Origin: an uncultured Colwellia sp.
GTDB taxonomy: Bacteria; Pseudomonadota; Gammaproteobacteria; Enterobacterales; Alteromonadaceae
NCBI GenBank assembly: GCA_913020705.1
Contig: CAJWBY010000209.1
Span: 1 to 6,505, forward strand
Length of the DNA: 6,505 nt
Direction of reading: 5' to 3'
Shown: piece by piece, positions 274 to 6,505 of the stretch
Layout: the number at the start of each line of letters is the position of its first letter
How positions within the stretch are numbered: position 1 is the stretch's first letter
Made by a program: the position numbers and the translations under genes
Notes under the pieces: generated by a model
Seen by the model: only the letters and a program-made list of their open reading frames with translations
What the model was told of the DNA's origin: nothing
Database searches by the model: none

Positions 274-591
274 TTATCTGATACCTACTTCCATTTCGTG
301 GATAACATCAGGGTGGTTTTTAATTACATTCATTAATGTTGAAACAACACCTGGAGGCTCATGGCGACCTTGCTCCCAATCACGTAAAGATGTAACTGAA
401 GCATTAATTGCTTTAGCAAATTTAGGCTGCGTATAACCAACTACCGATCTTGCTTCCCTTACAAGAAGCTGACTAGGTGTATAGACTCGCCCCTGCTCAC
501 CCGCATTCATTTCAGCAAGGCTTTGTTTTATGTCAGGGATGTCAAACCCTGCATCAGCATTTATAGCGGCTGCTACTTTATTTATATCCAT
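274..591 (-). CDS. higA: HigA-like antitoxin, XRE-family HTH
   Basis: This 105-residue protein is the likely antitoxin of a HigBA-type module, expected to neutralise the neighbouring toxin and repress the shared promoter. Residues 1-36 form a short N-terminal extension. A helix-turn-helix of the XRE/HigA2/NadS type spans about 39-95, with T-P-S-Q-L at 38-42, the recognition region around 53-72 and the diagnostic DWEQGRHEPP at 71-80. The length fits HigA2-like antitoxins of about 100 residues. The start is supported by an AAAAAGG Shine-Dalgarno-like stretch about 10 bases upstream. The gene lies 25 bases downstream of the toxin gene, the toxin-first order typical of hig loci. It ends in TAA and all seven glycines are GGN, so it is equally readable under the standard code and table 25. 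The family call is confident; activity is inferred. Confidence 0.88.
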   Translation of the reverse strand: MDINKVAAAINADAGFDIPDIKQSLAEMNAGEQGRVYTPSQLLVREARSVVGYTQPKFAKAINASVTSLRDWEQGRHEPPGVVSTLMNVIKNHPDVIHEMEVGIR

Positions 592-616: not shown

Positions 617-913
617 TTATATCGCTTGTTTAATTTCTTTACCTGTTATATTCGCTTTATCAGATTTCTGGTAGATTGAAATTAGGTGAATACTTCCTTC
701 AGCATCTTGATTGAAATAAACAACTCGAACACCTCCACGCTTACCAGAACCTTTTACAGTCCAACGTACTTTTCTTGCACCATCAGTATTAGGAATGACA
801 TCTCCTGCCGTTGGGTTCTGAACAATATAGTCAATGAAAGATAACCTCTCATCTTCAGACCATATTTTGTCTACCTGTTTAGTAAATGTCGGCGTTTCAA
901 TTACTGTTTGCAT
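617..913 (-). CDS. higB: HigB/RelE-like mRNA interferase toxin
   Basis: This 98-residue protein matches the RelE/ParE superfamily, HigB2-like branch, whose members cut mRNA on the ribosome. The recognisable core is the family's G-x-RK-x-R segment (G45, R47, K48, R50), then GKRGGVRVVYF at 57-67 and the strand LISIYQKSDKANI at 77-89. The basic residues K58, R59 and R63 and tyrosines Y66 and Y81 lie where family members carry substrate-binding or catalytic side chains. The length is normal and the gene looks intact. It is the first gene of the two-gene unit, and the antitoxin gene follows after 25 bases. The start codon is only five bases from a TATAAT box, so the transcript is probably leaderless or nearly so. 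The stop is TAA and all eight glycines are GGN. Such modules commonly stabilise plasmids; that role is inferred here. Confidence 0.87.
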   Translation of the reverse strand: MQTVIETPTFTKQVDKIWSEDERLSFIDYIVQNPTAGDVIPNTDGARKVRWTVKGSGKRGGVRVVYFNQDAEGSIHLISIYQKSDKANITGKEIKQAI

Positions 914-947: not shown

Positions 948-1877
948 TTATTCAACATGACTCTTCCTTTGTGATGAAACAGACAATTTATATTCTGCAT
1001 CCTTCACTACTTTTCTCATAGCTCCGCCAGGCATCTTTGATTTACACTCGACACGGAAAAAATATTTCCCTTGGGCTAAATCAATATCAAACTTAAGCTC
1101 TTTACTATTCTTGGCATTGAAACCTGGAAAGAAGACAATTTGGTGTTGGCCCTCATCATAAACAGTCACCTTAAACGTTACAGGGCTAATTTTATCTCCA
1201 CCAGTATTTCTTCGATACGTTTCAGCGAAATTAGGCTGTTCAAGTAATACAGTTACAGCTTGAGGACTATCAACGTCTAGTACATAGTAATCTCCCGGAG
1301 TACCAAATCGTAGCCCTCTCCGAGCTTCAATTATCGAATTCATCTTTATTGTATTGGCTGTTTTAAATCCATCATTGGGTTCAAGCTCAGTGAGTTCTGA
1401 GGGAGAGAAGTTAAATGAAAGTTGATATTGTAGCTTCCATACATCCCTATTATTTGATCGTAGTTTTATAAAATACTCACCTTTTGGAAGGCCAATCTTG
1501 AATTCATGATCCTTGAATATATAAACATCTCGATAAAGAGCGTCATTGGACCTTTTAATAAGATTATCAATTGTCCCACTATGTATTGATAGTTCGTAGC
1601 CCGTCGCATAAGGTTTAACTATTTCATCTAAAGAGCTATCAACGCCGAGATTGACAGTTAAAATACCATTTTCTTCGATAACTACTTTGTAATAATCAAG
1701 ATCATAACCGCTAGAAGTCTCTAGTGTTCCGGCATAAACAGACTGTCCATTAATTCCTAGTGCTTGGCCAAACTTATCATTTGGTTCATGTTCTTGTTCA
1801 GTTGCCATGACTGAGATGCTGGCCACTAGGTGTCCCAATACAACAAGCCCCGTTAATATTTTCTGAAACTTAAACAT
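948..1877 (-). CDS. Secreted protein with two PPC-like domains
   Basis: This 309-residue protein is probably exported. Residues 1-25 form a signal peptide: basic start (K3, K6), hydrophobic core at 7-23 and a likely cleavage site after VMA at 23-25. The mature protein has two repeats resembling bacterial pre-peptidase C-terminal (PPC) domains. The first starts with EPND at 31-34 and has YDLDYYKV at 58-65; the second has EPND at 166-169 and GDYYVLDV at 195-202. These beta-sandwich modules usually accompany secreted proteases, but no peptidase domain is present, so a binding or stabilising role is more likely. The start is supported by AGGAAAAGAAG directly upstream. It lies 18 bases downstream of the AlpA-like gene and is probably cotranscribed with it. 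All 24 glycines are GGN and the stop is TAA. The specific function is unknown. Confidence 0.8.
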   Translation of the reverse strand: MFKFQKILTGLVVLGHLVASISVMATEQEHEPNDKFGQALGINGQSVYAGTLETSSGYDLDYYKVVIEENGILTVNLGVDSSLDEIVKPYATGYELSIHSGTIDNLIKRSNDALYRDVYIFKDHEFKIGLPKGEYFIKLRSNNRDVWKLQYQLSFNFSPSELTELEPNDGFKTANTIKMNSIIEARRGLRFGTPGDYYVLDVDSPQAVTVLLEQPNFAETYRRNTGGDKISPVTFKVTVYDEGQHQIVFFPGFNAKNSKELKFDIDLAQGKYFFRVECKSKMPGGAMRKVVKDAEYKLSVSSQRKSHVE

Positions 1878-1895: not shown

Positions 1896-2321
1896 TTAGC
1901 ATGATTTAATCCATTGCTGCACTTCACTTAAACGCCAGCCGATGCTTCCCGATGTTAAAGGCACCCTAGCAGGAAATTCACCCTTTCGCTCCAAGCGCCA
2001 TAAAGTAGTACGTGACAAACTTGTTAATTCTTGAACTTCTTTTGATCGAATGATCTTATCAACAGTATTAACATCTTGGGTCTGAATAGTTTCACCCTTA
2101 ATGCTATTTAAAAGGTGATTTAACAACTGAAAACCAAAAAACTCTACTTGGGTGCCTGTTACTTGAATAAACTCAATTTCATGGCGCTTAATCATCTTCT
2201 CAACATCAGAATTCGTACACCTCAAAAATAGTGAAGCCTCGGCAGGAGTAAACCGCTGATACAGTGCGATCCCCATGCTATCCGCTAGCTCACATAAAGT
2301 AGGTGTAAAAGGCTGGGCCAT
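1896..2321 (-). CDS. AlpA-like regulator with extra N-terminal HTH-like region
   Basis: This 141-residue protein has two apparent DNA-binding regions. Residues 24-73, beginning FTPAEASLFLRC, resemble an excisionase-type (MerR-like, HTH_17) winged helix. Residues 88-141 match the AlpA family: an R-S-K-E-V-x-E-L-T start at 92-100, LSRTTLWRLERKGEFP at 102-117, and the IGWRLSEVQQWIKS ending at 127-140. AlpA-type proteins are small regulators of excision or accessory genes in prophages, plasmids and integrative elements. The gene precedes the secreted PPC-protein gene on the same strand, 18 bases away, so it may control that gene or the divergent promoter region at 2322-2420. An AGGA about 17 bases before the ATG is too distant to be a good ribosome site. 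The stop is TAA and all seven glycines are GGN. The AlpA call is confident; the target is inferred. Confidence 0.82.
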   Translation of the reverse strand: MAQPFTPTLCELADSMGIALYQRFTPAEASLFLRCTNSDVEKMIKRHEIEFIQVTGTQVEFFGFQLLNHLLNSIKGETIQTQDVNTVDKIIRSKEVQELTSLSRTTLWRLERKGEFPARVPLTSGSIGWRLSEVQQWIKSC

Positions 2322-2420: not shown

Positions 2421-2828
2421 ATGTCACAAGCAGCCCATACATCTACAGCCCAAGGTAATACGCTAGAAGAGCGTATTCAAAACTATAGAACTGCTCAGCA
2501 GAATTACGACAATATTAAAACAAGTGAACAACTTAAAAATAATAATGAATGGCAAAATAGACTAGGTACCGATGAAGAACTTCAGTTTGCCAATCAAGTA
2601 GCTGAAAACTCATTGCAAATCTCGGCCAAAGCATTAAGCCAAAAAGATATTAATCAAGCTAAAAATTTAAACCTGTTATCAGAGCAAGAACAAAAACAAA
2701 TTCAAGAATTGAACTCCCCTTCATCATCTGAAAAAGATAAACAAATTTCAGAAAATAAAAATCGTATTGCTGCTGCACGAGATCAATCAAAATCACTTGA
2801 TAAAGATCATGATAAATCTAAAGGTTAA
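2421..2828 (+). CDS. Hydrophilic Q/N/K-rich protein of unknown function
   Basis: I do not recognise a family for this 135-residue protein. It has no signal peptide, no membrane segment and no cysteine. It is rich in Q, N, K, E and S. Residues 15-100 look largely alpha-helical with coiled-coil character (EERIQNYRTAQQNYDNIK at 16-33, LSEQEQKQIQEL at 87-98). The tail is charged and probably disordered (SLDKDHDKSKG at 125-135). An in-frame TAG at 2415-2417 fixes the start at or after 2421. It is the first plus-strand gene and lies directly before the iterons, a place often used by small plasmid accessory genes. It has no TGA codon, its only three glycines are GGT, and it ends in TAA, so its code membership cannot be decided. 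Gene reality is likely from length and composition; function is open. Confidence 0.65.
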   Translation: MSQAAHTSTAQGNTLEERIQNYRTAQQNYDNIKTSEQLKNNNEWQNRLGTDEELQFANQVAENSLQISAKALSQKDINQAKNLNLLSEQEQKQIQELNSPSSSEKDKQISENKNRIAAARDQSKSLDKDHDKSKG

Positions 2829-2931: not shown

Positions 2932-3015
2932 ATATCACACTTTTCAGGTTTAATATCACCATTATCAGGAGTGATATCACAATTTTCAGGCGAAATATCT
3001 CACTTATCAGGGAGG
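2932..3015 (+). repeat. Iteron array of four 21-bp direct repeats (candidate origin)
   Basis: Four units start at 2932, 2953, 2974 and 2995, exactly 21 bases apart. They follow the pattern ATATCACNNTTNTCAGG plus four variable bases; the fourth has ATATCTC. Helically phased direct repeats of this size, just upstream of a Rep_3-type initiator gene, are the hallmark of iteron plasmids: Rep monomers bind them to open the origin and to control copy number. No convincing DnaA box was found beside them, and the surrounding sequence is AT-rich. The repeat is directly visible; origin function is inferred from the array and the adjacent rep gene. Confidence 0.88.
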
Positions 3016-3094: not shown

Positions 3095-4363
3095 ATGGAC
3101 CTATTAGAAATAACAAAAATTGACTGAAAAAAGTCAATTGTCAGATCCAACGATTACACCGCTGCCACTTACTCCCTATCACCCGATGCCCATAGAATTA
3201 TCTCTGTAGCAATTTCAGCAATTGCTCAAAATGATCTGAAGTTCACAGCTTATAGAATTTACGTTCAAGAGCTAATAACCTTTTTCCCGGCACTTCATTC
3301 GGATAAAAATGCCATTGCTAGAATTGATAAAGCAACGGATTCATTAATGTGATCTTATATCAAGATAAAACAAAAAAATGGCTGGCTGAAAAGGAACCTA
3401 GTTCATTCATGCCTGTTTAATAAAAACTCAGGCCATCCATATGTTGATATTAAACTTGATGATGACATGCTTCCTCACTTAATTAGTGTTAACAGTTATT
3501 TCTCATCACCAAAACTGGAAAATATTAGATTATTTAAGAAGGACCAACACTTCAAACTACATGCCTATTTTTACTCATTTCTATATCGCCATACTACGGG
3601 TATTGTGAGCATCGACGATTTAAGGAAAATTCTTGATGTTGATAAAAAACAGTACAAATTAGTCGGACATTTGAAAAGTCGCTTACTCCTACCATCAATC
3701 GATCTTATCAATAATGTAACTGACATCCATATATCGATTAAAGACGTTAAACACTGAAGAAAAATTGCTGGATTTATTTTCAACATTGCTAAAAGGCCGC
3801 CATTACCTATCATTAGCGACACTCCCGATGCATCCTGTAATATCGAACAATCTATAGACCTTCAAAAAGAATACTTGGCTCTTTGAATATCAAGACCTGA
3901 TTTTACGATATTACTTAAAAAACATAGTCAGGCATATCTTGAGCAACTACTCATCTATGTGAATCATAAGAAATCACAGATTAAAATCGATTCCGTTAAA
4001 AATTATATTTTTGGGATTCTGAACAAGAAACCAACATTAGATGAACTGCTAACTCCCAGCTGTCTGATTAAAGCCCAAAATAGTAAACGCATTATTCAGG
4101 AATCACACAACAGACAGATCATCAATGAGAAACAAAACGATAAAGACAAACAAGCCAACAAAGTAACACTAGAAATCAAAAATTATTTGGCCAAGAAAAG
4201 TAAAGATCAGCTATGTGAAATAAGAGCAGTCTTTAATAACTCCCTTTTTGCTAGCGGGTTAAAATTTGGCCAAGAAAGTGTTGATTTTGACAAGCCAATT
4301 GTTGAGGCAACTTTTTATAATTTTGTTCACATCAAATATATCGGTTCCATTTCTAAAGAATAG
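3095..4363 (+). CDS. Iteron replication initiator (Rep_3 family), UGA read as glycine
   Basis: With TGA read as glycine this is one uninterrupted 422-residue frame ending in TAG. Under the standard code it breaks at four TGAs, codons 11, 86, 221 and 264, with no TAA or TAG. It matches RepB/RepE-type initiators built of two winged helices. VRSNDYTAATYSLSPDAHR (16-34) corresponds to the family's N-terminal pattern, and the stretch ending in KDVKH[G]RKIAGFIF is the conserved end of the second winged helix, where family members have G-R-K. LAL[G]ISRPDF (codons 261-270) fits the usual G-I-S turn of the C-terminal region. These two TGAs therefore fall on expected glycines; codons 11 and 86 are less diagnostic. 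Nine further glycines are GGN. ATG 3095 is chosen because TAA at 3059 blocks extension and no ATG occurs downstream before codon 85. It should bind the iterons just upstream. Confidence 0.88.
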
Positions 4364-4554
4364 TTGTTCACATAAGTTATACAACAATCCATAAAAGGGA
4401 TAATTACGATAGTAAATTAGGACCGTTCCCAAAAACTACAACCCTTTACAATTAGCCAAAATATGGCATAAATAATTTTCTTTTGGAATATTTCGCTTTC
4501 TGAATATAATTAAGTTGTTCGATCTAGACAATTTATATCGTAACTATTAAAACA
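4364..4554. other. AT-rich intergenic spacer after rep
   Basis: No gene is visible in either code. The only structures seen are a short dyad right after the rep stop (TTGTT then AACAA about 14 bases later) and CCAAAA (4456-4461) with TTTTGG (4481-4486) enclosing an AT-rich loop. Neither makes a convincing terminator. The spacer could hold promoter elements for the genes to the right or a transfer origin, but no nick-site motif was recognised. Confidence 0.5.
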
Positions 4555-4761
4555 ATGCCAAAGCAAGAAAAGCATATCACTTCAATTCATATCGATGTTT
4601 TTGATAGCTGAAAATATGATCTTAAAAACGGACAATATCCTAGGGCCAATAAGGTTAAGGTTTATTATGATTTGTTTGAGATATCGCGTTCTGAGTTGAG
4701 TGAGTTGGTGACGTTGATTAGGATGAAGACTAGGTGAAGTTGTGGCCGCAGGACTAAGTAG
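4555..4761 (+). CDS. Possible small recoded ORF, unknown function
   Basis: Reading TGA as glycine gives a 68-residue frame from ATG 4555 to TAG 4759-4761, with TGA at codons 19 and 61. The protein is charged (IDVFDS[G]KYDLKNGQYPR, then YYDLFEISRSELSELVTLIR), with a helical-looking middle and a basic end (GSCGRRTK). I recognise no family. It sits between rep and the ATPase gene on the same strand, where a small DNA-binding or relaxosome accessory protein would not be surprising, but nothing in the sequence proves that. An in-frame TAG at 4525-4527 limits upstream extension and there is no ribosome-binding motif. The opposite strand also carries a 79-codon frame here, so coding is uncertain. 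Confidence 0.35.
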
Positions 4762-4895
4762 TGCTTTTTGAGTAGATGTAGATAAAAGTTGAATACATCT
4801 TCCCTCACTTCCCCGCTTCATGCTGCCAAGATATTCAAACGTTAAAGACCTGATAAAAAGGTAGCCATAAATTTAAATTCTAATCACTAAAAAAC
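4762..4895. other. Intergenic spacer before the ATPase gene
   Basis: No gene, repeat or convincing promoter is seen in these 134 bases. In-frame TAA at 4881-4883 precedes the ATPase ATG. No Shine-Dalgarno sequence occurs before that ATG; the upstream bases are CACTAAAAAAC. Confidence 0.4.
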
Positions 4896-6275
4896 ATGAC
4901 ATCCAGCAAAATAAGGCCGATGCCTCAAACTGCATATTTAGCCATCAAAAAGTTCTTTCAGAAATGGCAGTTCTTTATATTTCTATCTCGACTAAATAAA
5001 ATATTGCCACTGTCTGCATTCAAAAAACATGGTTATATTGTGGCATCATCATGATGTGGTAAAAGTGAGTTTATTAAGACTCTCATTTATCGTGAGATCT
5101 TAGAAAAACATCCATCCTCAGCTATCATCGTTATTGACCCTCATGGTGATATGGTTGAAGAAATTGCAAAGCTCTCTGAATTTTCTAATCCTAAAAAAGC
5201 CAAAAGACTTGTTTATATTGATCCAACTTTAAAATCTGGTTATTCACCAAGTATTAACCCCTTTGAGCTGGATGATCATAGTGACGAAAATATCGCCCTG
5301 ATGACTCAGGAGCTAAAAAGCATCATTACTGTGTTATTGCAGTGAAGTAGCACCACAAATCAAATGGATGCCATATTAAGCCCATGCATTGCAACACTGC
5401 TTAGAAAGAAAAATAGTTCCTTTGCAGAGCTTCAACGTTTTATGGATGACAGCAATAATAGTGATCTGATTGAACTAGGTAAAAACTCGCCCAACCCACA
5501 GCACCAATTACTTTTTAAGAATAAATTTAACAGCTCATTATTTAATGTAACCAAGCACTGAATTTATACCAGAATGCAGGTTTTATTAAATGATCCAACA
5601 TTTCAGAATCTAGTCTCAAATAAAACATCACTTTCATTAAAGAGATTGATTGATGAAAAAAAGATTATTTTATTTAAACTCTCACTGGGTAACTCATGAA
5701 GCGAGAGCATTCAATCATACTGACGTTTTATTGTTGGCCTGCTGAGAATAATCGCATTTCAAAGAAGTTCGCTTCCTCACCGGATAAGAATGCCAACATA
5801 CTTGTTTATTGATGAATTCCAAAACTTTATTTCTGATGATATTGAAAAGGCACTGACACAGCTTAGAAAATATGGCCTACACATGATTTTATCTAACCAA
5901 TATGTGGGCCAAGAAGTATCGACATCACTGCAAAAAGCACTCTTCTCATCATGAGTAAAGATTGCCGGTAGAAATGATAAAAAAAGCTTATCAGCAATCT
6001 GAAACGAAATGAACATATCTGTTGATGACTTGAAAAAAGTTCGTGTTGGTGAATTTTATATCCAATCATCAAATCAAGTGGCTAAGAAAATACGAGCCCC
6101 AAAGATGCTGCTCGGTAATAATCATGCAATGACAAACCAAAGCTGGGCCATTCTTAAAGATGAGAACTTAAAGAAATACTATTCGAAGATATCTCAGCCA
6201 GATGAGGAGATAAAATATACCGCATCTTACTCAGCTAAAAGCATTGAAGATTTAACCGCTAAATATTGAGCCTAA
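4896..6275 (+). CDS. TraD/HerA-like DNA-transfer ATPase, UGA read as glycine
   Basis: With TGA as glycine this is one 459-residue frame ending in TAA. The standard code breaks it at eight TGAs (codons 53, 150, 222, 268, 276, 353, 369, 458). It is a P-loop motor of the type IV coupling-protein/HerA group that moves DNA in conjugation. Walker A is ASS[G]CGKSE at 50-58, whose TGA is the glycine of T-G-S-G-K. VIDPHGDM at 79-86 is a recognised segment of the group. LFIDEFQNF at 303-311 is Walker B with D306 and E307. SNQ at 333-335 fits the following sensor strand. GNS[G]SESIQSY[G]RF (266-278) matches a G-x-x-G...G-R pattern with TGA at both glycines. Twelve other glycines are GGT or GGC, none GGA. 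There is no N-terminal membrane anchor, unlike many TraD/VirD4 proteins. The TAA overlaps the next ATG by one base. Confidence 0.87.
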
Positions 6276-6505
6276 TGATCACTTTCGAAAAACAAATTGT
6301 TCTTTTAGAAGCATTGGCCCGCTTCAAATACCTAACCACTAAGCAGCTACAACTTATTTTTGGCTTAAAAAGTAACAGCTACACCAATACAATTATTAGA
6401 AACCTTAAATCAAGAAAGTGAATTATAGTTCCTTTTAATACAATATCGATTATTGTATCGAAAGCATTTGCAGAAAGTCTTTCCGTTGGAGAGATAAAGT
6501 TACCT
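6275..6505 (+). CDS. Replication-relaxation-like winged-helix protein, N-terminal part, UGA read as glycine
   Basis: Only the first 77 codons lie in the window; the gene continues past the right edge. The start is fixed by ATG 6275, which overlaps the ATPase stop codon (TAATG), so the two are probably translationally coupled. LLEALARFKYLTTKQLQLIF (10-29) and IIRNLKSRK[G]IIVPF (40-54) look like the winged helix that opens Replic_Relax (PF13814)-type proteins, which accompany plasmid and conjugative mobilisation genes. TGA at codon 49 (6419-6421) falls on the small residue, normally glycine, of the wing turn before a hydrophobic strand. Another winged-helix regulator is possible because the rest is missing. 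The downstream gene may be a relaxase; that is a guess from similar loci. Confidence 0.6.

Follow-up and report, generated by a model that had tools for sequence, protein, structure and literature searches.

How are replication and transfer genes to be read when UGA crosses their frames again and again? This question is raised by a stretch of 6,505 nucleotides from an uncultured Colwellia sp. (GenBank assembly GCA_913020705.1, contig CAJWBY010000209.1), which in its full length we call the window. Comparison with relatives indicates that UGA stands for glycine in one operon of the window, and operons of the same kind lie on contigs of standard-code bacteria, close to genes that end in UGA. On balance, we lean towards the view that the window comes from an integrative mobilizable element that resides in standard-code bacteria and in which rep, a small protein, TraD and a nuclease are written with UGA as glycine, and that this code forms a lock opened in trans by a tRNA-Gly(UCA).

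TGA-containing frames of the window

The window consists of two halves. The left half (274-2828) holds five genes without recoding, with no in-frame TGA and with TAA as the stop of each, and the right half holds the TGA-containing frames:

3095..4363, plus strand: rep, a Rep_3 replication initiator, with four in-frame TGA (codons 11, 86, 221 and 264) and TAG as end stop
4555..4761, plus strand: a small conserved protein between rep and traD, with two TGA (codons 19 and 61)
4896..6275, plus strand: traD, a TraD/VirD4/HerA-type ATPase, with eight TGA (codons 53, 150, 222, 268, 276, 353, 369 and 458) and TAA as end stop
6275..6505, plus strand: N-terminal start of a Replic_Relax-like protein (winged-helix plus nuclease fold), with one TGA (codon 49), cut by the window end

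An initial annotation, made from the sequence alone, had counted 13 in-frame TGA over rep, traD and the third frame (422 + 459 + 77 = 958 codons), without a single TAA or TAG ahead of the terminal stops, and these counts are exact. In the other two plus-strand frames of 3095-6505, TGA accounts for 55 of 162 stops, and 13 TGA out of 13 would therefore arise by chance with p ~8e-7. The same annotation had located TGA at motif sites of traD (codons 53, 268 and 276, the first in what we take to be the Walker A motif) and of rep (codons 221 and 264), all of them correctly placed, and had noted that tryptophan is written TGG in the same genes (once in rep, twice in traD), as it is. It had overlooked the small protein at 4555-4761, which is conserved in four relatives. 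The ends of the operon genes at TAA or TAG were found by reading TGA as glycine; the absence of TGA ends is thus given by construction, and we do not use it as evidence.

The family labels first given to the rep and traD products, Rep_3 and TraD/HerA, are borne out by Pfam, which finds Rep3_N/Rep3_C in the former and DUF87/TrwB in the latter. The rep protein has the WH1 and WH2 domains of Rep proteins (PF01051, 3.3e-17; PF21205, 9.5e-15) and matches solved replication initiation proteins (for example, 1rep, 5.9e-11); the RepM and RepE models of NCBIfam score below their cut-offs. The label Replic_Relax for the third protein holds only weakly and by way of full-length relatives, which score 25.3 bits in L003 (exactly the cut-off of 25.3), 18.1 in L004 (below it) and nothing in L005 (loci introduced below), while the 77-residue piece in the window has no Pfam match. 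A structural model of the third protein (predicted local distance difference test score, pLDDT, 90) has a winged helix and a domain whose best matches are nucleases, with poor superposition (FokI, template modeling score 0.29); Replic_Relax and "replication initiation by nicking" are both matched weakly. The protein may act in nicking.

UGA specifies glycine in the operon

When 84,980 genomes were scanned with an alignment of TraD, at least 80 loci came up; among the 80 listed, four have in-frame stops within the TraD match and 76 have none. Among the matches listed, the TGA-written operon lies on the following contigs of standard-code bacteria:

L005: Colwellia sp. MAG-91, 395,681-bp contig
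L004: Motiliproteus sp. MSK22-1 (Oceanospirillaceae), a named strain not titled as a metagenome-assembled genome (MAG), 192,116-bp contig
L003: Gammaproteobacteria nPCRbin5, 38,965-bp contig
L002: Proteobacteria Modern_marine.mb.199, 44,163-bp contig

We scored 31 TraD columns that lie under TGA in five loci against 27 standard-code relatives. Glycine reached a log-odds score of +58.7, followed by serine (-30.5) and alanine (-42.4); as controls in the same genes, GGT returned glycine (+52.2) and TGG returned tryptophan (+10.7). The residues opposite TGA across the five loci (n = 139) include 61 glycines, 10 alanines, 9 serines, 9 leucines and no tryptophan, and TGA and GGN codons replace each other between relatives. 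Codons 53, 222, 268 and 276 of traD face glycine in all 27 standard-code relatives, and some TGA codons fall at unconserved places (for example, TraD 458) and are uninformative alone. These alignments point firmly to glycine as the meaning of UGA in the operon genes, and on this the initial annotation has been sustained.

TraD relatives come in two kinds, one of about 600 to 700 residues with few tryptophans and many glycines, the other mostly of 440 to 490 residues with many tryptophans and few glycines, the tryptophans lying on glycine columns. These tryptophans had suggested that UGA might be read as tryptophan, a reading that we rejected because standard-code relatives mostly have glycine there. 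The simplest explanation of the tryptophan-rich kind is that TGA-written genes were called with translation table 4, and for the same reason the tryptophans in the database most likely reflect such calling. In a TraD tree, from which P0039 and P0046 (<330 residues) were left out, the TGA-written and tryptophan-rich sequences form one clade (support 0.88) that adjoins the standard-code clade of 600- to 700-residue proteins, and the tryptophan-rich members are as little as 43% identical to the TraD of the window. Metagenome relatives of TraD (P0043-P0050 and P0159-P0165), on contigs of up to 33 kb, look more heavily recoded, with up to 19 tryptophans to 11 glycines or 18 to 4.

Two codes within one element

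The initial annotation had attributed the DNA to a table 25 organism (SR1/Gracilibacteria) and had offered the absence of release factor 2 (RF2) as a check. The relatives contradict this attribution: they sit in standard-code genomes, and RF2 scores over its family cut-off in all four genomes that carry them. TGA ends 16 of 49 flanking host open reading frames (at least 150 residues), and it ends 10 of 29 backbone genes recognized by homology, all four MobC genes among them, in a count that leaves out two rows of the gene o123 and reads stops with table 11. Close to its end, the RexB-like gene beside RexA in L005 has TGA TGA. By contrast, 72 in-frame TGA and a single TAA/TAG occur in the 4,716 codons of the operon genes (rep, traD and the nuclease gene), and TGA makes up 0.28 to 0.36 of glycine codons in all five operons. 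Within the window itself, there are 12 TGA in the 883 codons of rep and traD, compared with none in the 793 codons of the AlpA, o135 and cargo genes. The presence of RF2, the TGA-ended host and backbone genes, and the lack of TGA in the left-hand genes of the window show these elements to be split between two codes, and the mix occurs within one element. The window alone cannot tell table 25 from the standard code, since its left-hand genes all stop with TAA.

The composition of the operon matches its surroundings in each host. The G+C contents at third codon positions (GC3) of operon, backbone and host are 0.336, 0.303 and 0.280 in Colwellia (L005); 0.452, 0.438 and 0.460 in Motiliproteus (L004); 0.295, 0.304 and 0.291 in L003; and 0.530, 0.524 and 0.462 in L002. 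Taken with the single TGA-written TraD clade and its divergence down to 43% identity, the matched GC3 indicates that the recoded state is not recent and that selection has kept it open. That GC3 follows each host and that TraD forms one clade also argues against decay or contamination.

Elements that carry the operon

The left half of the window holds the following genes:

274..591, minus strand: antitoxin-like helix-turn-helix (HTH) protein (MqsA/HigA type); PF15731/PF13560 and TIGR03830, all below cut-off
617..913, minus strand: RelE/HigB-type toxin-like protein; PF06296, 25.3 bits (cut-off 27)
948..1877, minus strand: secreted-looking cargo protein
1896..2321, minus strand: AlpA-type excisionase/regulator; PF05930, 3.3e-16
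2421..2828, plus strand: small backbone protein o135

The AlpA of the window is 60% identical to that of the Colwellia element (L005), and its o135 is 38-41% identical to the o135 of L005; o135 homologues adjoin AlpA on the Colwellia, Motiliproteus and L002 contigs. The toxin-like protein has top plasmid matches of 47-50% identity in tblastn, some labelled RelE/ParE. No plasmid match was found for the cargo protein or for AlpA, and a DNA-level search of the window against plasmids gave zero matches.

In L005 the order of genes is groES-groEL (names that we take from the sequence), tyrosine integrase, AlpA, o135, iterons, rep, small protein, traD and nuclease, followed further on by RexA-like, RhuM-like and WYL genes, MobC, MobA, a type IV coupling protein (T4CP) and a DnaJ-like gene. 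L004 runs from what is presumably a yicC-like gene through integrase, RadC, small protein, traD and nuclease to a dCMP-deaminase-domain gene, which matches the PADLOC dCTPase model, and to more TGA-written genes. In L002, the small protein, traD, nuclease, MobC, MobA and T4CP genes precede the o135/AlpA pair, which thus comes after the operon and not before it; in Motiliproteus the pair is likewise on the far side. Standard-code cargo resembling defence genes lies at L005:13117-17374 (RexA-like with a RexB-like neighbour, RhuM-like and WYL genes) and at L004:12729-14273 in Motiliproteus (the dCMP-deaminase/dCTPase-type gene).

A tyrosine integrase (by Pfam) and AlpA are present in L005, and Motiliproteus has, by similarity, AlpA and an integrase 23% identical to that of L005; the window has AlpA and no integrase within it, and no integrase was matched in L002 or L003. 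MobA/VirD2-like PF03432 was found in L003 and T4CP PF02534 in L005, with homologues of both in L002-L005, outside the window. PHROGs searched with 10 proteins returned excisionase, HTH, replication and uncharacterised families, and one weak large-terminase match of TraD in its ATPase part (E 0.00067). No relative of rep or the nuclease was found in IMG/VR, and relatives of TraD there reach only 24-25% identity, with one Microcystis phage at 34%.

TraD was matched in 1 genome among 394 from the order to which the Colwellia host belongs and in 1 of 24 in the order of the L003 host, in each case that host itself; in the order of the L002 host, 11 of 257 match, and only the L002 host is close. The nuclease is found in 2 of 369 Gammaproteobacteria, the Motiliproteus host and one weak match. 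RF2 of the L002 genome is 52-54% identical to RF2 of Colwellia and Motiliproteus, and on account of this low identity the L002 host may not be a gammaproteobacterium. Plasmid matches of TraD are all below 30% identity, the nuclease has zero matches to plasmids, and the nearest standard-code TraD relatives include Vibrio and Pseudoalteromonas.

Early UGA codons and a proposed lock

Two features of the plus strand lie ahead of rep and of the traD operon:

2932..3011, plus strand: iterons with 21-bp spacing upstream of rep; candidate replication origin
4483..4510, plus strand: sigma-70-like promoter TTGGAA-16-TATAAT ahead of the traD operon, at a conserved position

A similar iteron motif with 21-bp spacing precedes rep in L005 (7947-8024). 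L002 and L003 have TTGACA/TATAAT at the place of the window promoter; a promoter scan of the region found 5 sites where 9.6 were expected in shuffles, and the support for the promoter is its conserved position. Inverted repeats lie between rep and the small protein in the window (4364-4554), L005 (9370-9580) and L003 (9414-9640) and are candidates for an origin of transfer (oriT), an attenuator or a terminator; those of L005 have 34-nt arms, and a hairpin follows the promoter.

Codon 11 of rep is TGA in 3/3 loci with DNA (window, L003 and L005). In its column, tryptophan stands in all 13 covering database proteins (4 of 17 do not cover it), which are related sequences; in the other rep glycine columns of database proteins, tryptophan accounts for 33 of the 145 tryptophans and glycines. 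The gene of the small protein comes first behind the operon promoter, and in four of five loci its codon 18 or 19 is TGA. UGA so early in both genes suggests a lock. A few codons past codon 11 (window 3095-3145), a TTG or ATT could allow internal initiation, and P0127 starts there; the early UGA would then be a leader stop.

We infer both the lock and its key. In a cell without a UGA-reading tRNA, ribosomes would halt after 10 residues of Rep and 17-18 residues of the small protein, and with these two truncated the element would stay integrated and quiet. Such elements have their AlpA, integrase and MobA/T4CP genes, and much of their cargo, in the standard code. A tRNA-Gly(UCA) might arrive in trans from another element, a phage or a new cell; full-length Rep, TraD and nicking protein could then be made, and the element would replicate and transfer. 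Such an opening of the operon in trans is suggested by analogy with phages that have recoded late genes, as described in the part of the source used here (PMC10746230). Host-like composition favours a helper in the same cell over entry into a UGA = Gly bacterium. More tentatively, we propose that a nonviral element uses a private code as its lock: its replication and transfer genes, with an apparently invariant early UGA in rep, could be read only where a tRNA-Gly(UCA) is present, a tRNA that the element itself lacks, and the time and place of its movement would be set by the owner of that key, whether helper element, phage or recoded bacterium.

The search for a decoder

A tRNA-Gly(UCA) had been named at the outset as a second check, and none is present among the tRNAs examined in two genomes that carry relatives: the UCA anticodon is absent among 65 ARAGORN tRNAs of Motiliproteus and 46 of Colwellia (150/293 and 150/317 first-look candidates scored). 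With default settings, ARAGORN found no tRNA in the window and L002-L005 except a tRNA-Asn in L003, and only a tRNA-Met in the extensions L120-L123. Permissive Rfam searches (E up to 1 for L002-L005, L120 and L121; 10 for the window) gave no UCA tRNA. Lowered ARAGORN thresholds (80%), introns and mitochondrial mode produced extra hits, apparently noise, whose many different anticodons include TCA in some cases. In the four host genomes, all 56 matches to a UCA-plus-T-loop pattern were inspected, and none was a UCA tRNA. One promising pattern match inside the L002 operon was rejected as a UCA tRNA, being the -10 box of a promoter, and among the tRNA pattern matches in the L003 host genome was a tandem 21-base repeat (G002:C226:27012-27082). 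An oddly shaped RNA could have escaped this search, and the elements of L003 and the window were read in part only, being ended by contig or window edges.

Several findings weigh against our reading. The first is the outcome of this search, which leaves a lock without a proven key. Further, tblastn found no rep in L004 and L002, no iterons were found before rep in L003, and the stretches compared hold no convincing direct repeat of at least 12 bases as an att site. The tryptophan at codon 11 of the 13 database Rep proteins could be encoded by TGG; the UGA of the L004 small protein lies at a different codon; and the one internal TAA/TAG of the operon genes lies in the rep of L003. The o135 and MobA genes of L002, both TGA-ended, are shorter than their relatives, and the count of TGA-ended backbone genes could therefore be 8. 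Recoding also reaches beyond the operon. Beside MobC, o123 is TGA-written in three loci (L003:13429-13803, L002:13006-13374 and L005:17729-18094), all of which have TGG-TGA at a shared site where one expects Trp-Gly; the L003 and L005 copies of o123 have no Pfam match and the L003 copy no PADLOC match. A large serine recombinase at L004:19504-21051 (Pfam Resolvase and Recombinase) has 12 TGA, two of which fall in what we take to be RPGF and APFGY motifs. With o123, this recombinase and cargo genes of L004 written in TGA, the split is not purely one of replication and transfer versus the rest. The Motiliproteus region has further TGA-written frames (L004:15483-17174, L120:9412-10341 and L120:19152-19631); the four further frames counted there, putative genes recognised only by their staying open, hold 4, 4, 12 and 8 TGA.

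Alternative explanations

The strongest competitor to a lock opened in trans, and one that we think rather unlikely, is a two-host shuttle that lies silent in a standard-code chromosome and lives as a plasmid in a UGA = Gly episymbiont (Absconditabacteria/Gracilibacteria). As far as the portions of the sources used here go, those groups and their phages are the only others listed with UGA as glycine (PMC8629427, PMC13059738), and some members of the groups live on bacteria, an Absconditicoccaceae species on gammaproteobacteria among them (PMC13059738); a shuttle would also fit the failure to find a decoder in the carriers examined. However, operon GC3 tracks four different surroundings, TGA stops are used by MobC, the RexB-like gene and further genes of these elements, and the closest standard-code relatives include Vibrio and Pseudoalteromonas. 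Moreover, none of the 80 loci listed from the scan of 84,980 genomes is titled as belonging to those groups, several being titled only "bacterium" or "Patescibacteria group," and four bear TGA. GroEL and EF-Tu matches by way of Patescibacteria include none with TGA among the matches listed, so that no UGA = Gly genome was searched directly.

Less likely again, the element or its host may encode the decoder as an RNA missed by ARAGORN and Rfam, such as an allo-tRNA or a split or strongly altered tRNA, and the element would then express the operon itself. That selection has kept these frames open is most readily understood if the operon is expressed where it normally resides, and recoded phages often bring their own suppressor tRNA, according to the part of the source used here (PMC10746230). 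Against this, neither default ARAGORN (window, L002-L005 and extensions) nor permissive Rfam (window, L002-L005, L120 and L121) gave a UCA tRNA.

It is very improbable that the window belongs to an SR1/Gracilibacteria genome or plasmid with table 25 throughout. Such an origin would account for UGA as glycine in rep, traD and the third frame, and the five TAA ends on the left are legal in table 25 too. Those five genes are nonetheless free of in-frame TGA, AlpA and o135 have their 60% and 38-41% identical counterparts in the element of a Colwellia chromosome, and the four TGA-bearing relatives found are all in RF2-bearing genomes.

We see a very slim chance that recoded DNA came to stand on ordinary contigs through misassembly or contamination. 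The Codetta authors met false recodings from contaminating contigs, as the portion of their paper used here describes (PMC8629427), and three of the four host genomes are titled MAGs; yet five separate assemblies place the operon near like backbone genes (AlpA and o135 in the window, L002, L005 and Motiliproteus; MobA and T4CP in L002-L005), and its composition matches each assembly. Decay of genes collecting stop codons, for which one could cite their broken look under table 11 and the TAA/TAG in L003 rep, has a negligible chance of being right in view of the 72 to 1 excess of TGA in 4,716 operon codons, its placement mostly on glycines, the similar iterons in the window and L005, and the diversified clade of such genes.

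Comparison with known systems

A lock of this kind, as we read it, has parts that are known. Partial stop recoding in mobile DNA has been described; its combination with glycine, an apparently nonviral element, a split code and an absent decoder was not found. Judged by titles and abstract openings in the open-access literature, no paper among those listed describes a UGA = Gly integrative element in a standard-code host, and a search by the strain name Motiliproteus sp. MSK22-1 returned no paper. Here UGA as glycine appears on chromosome contigs that belong to ordinary bacteria, including a named strain, beside genes with UGA as stop, and if the Motiliproteus strain is in culture, code switching would be testable there. 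Standard annotation hides such modules, which it breaks into fragments or turns into proteins with spurious tryptophans. These observations raise the possibility that the genetic code serves as a gate on gene transfer.

In the part of the Codetta survey used here, UGA as glycine is listed only for Absconditabacteria and Gracilibacteria (PMC8629427), and the part used of a second source describes a code 25 phage that carries its own tRNA-Gly(TCA) and comes from an Absconditicoccaceae species living on gammaproteobacteria (PMC13059738). The operon resembles code 25 bacteria (Absconditabacteria/SR1 and Gracilibacteria) and phages such as RSA-ATP1 (PMC13059738) in having UGA as glycine inside genes. 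The differences are that the genomes of its relatives have RF2 and use the standard code, that recoding is limited to some genes, that no tRNA-Gly(UCA) was found and that the element cannot be called a phage on this evidence. With phages that have recoded late genes (code 15 or code 4), as far as the portion of the source used here describes them (PMC10746230), it shares a single mobile genome of ordinary and stop-recoded genes and a proposed delay in expression, whereas in this case the suppressor tRNA was not seen, the element is of the integrase/AlpA/MobA/T4CP type, the amino acid is glycine and not glutamine or tryptophan, and it is the replication initiator and transfer ATPase that are recoded.

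Two further comparisons concern single genes. Like Rep_3 iteron plasmids, the window and L005 have WH1 and WH2 domains in Rep and iterons spaced by 21 bp before rep; unlike in those plasmids, UGA stands for glycine in rep and occurs early in it in 3/3 loci, and in L005 the gene lies near an integrase/AlpA pair. The standard-code TraD/HerA relatives of 600 to 700 residues (P0012-P0045; Vibrio vulnificus and Pseudoalteromonas) belong to the same ATPase family and form the sister group of the TGA-written proteins, but they have an extra N-terminal part, whereas full-length TGA-written members have about 440 to 490 residues.

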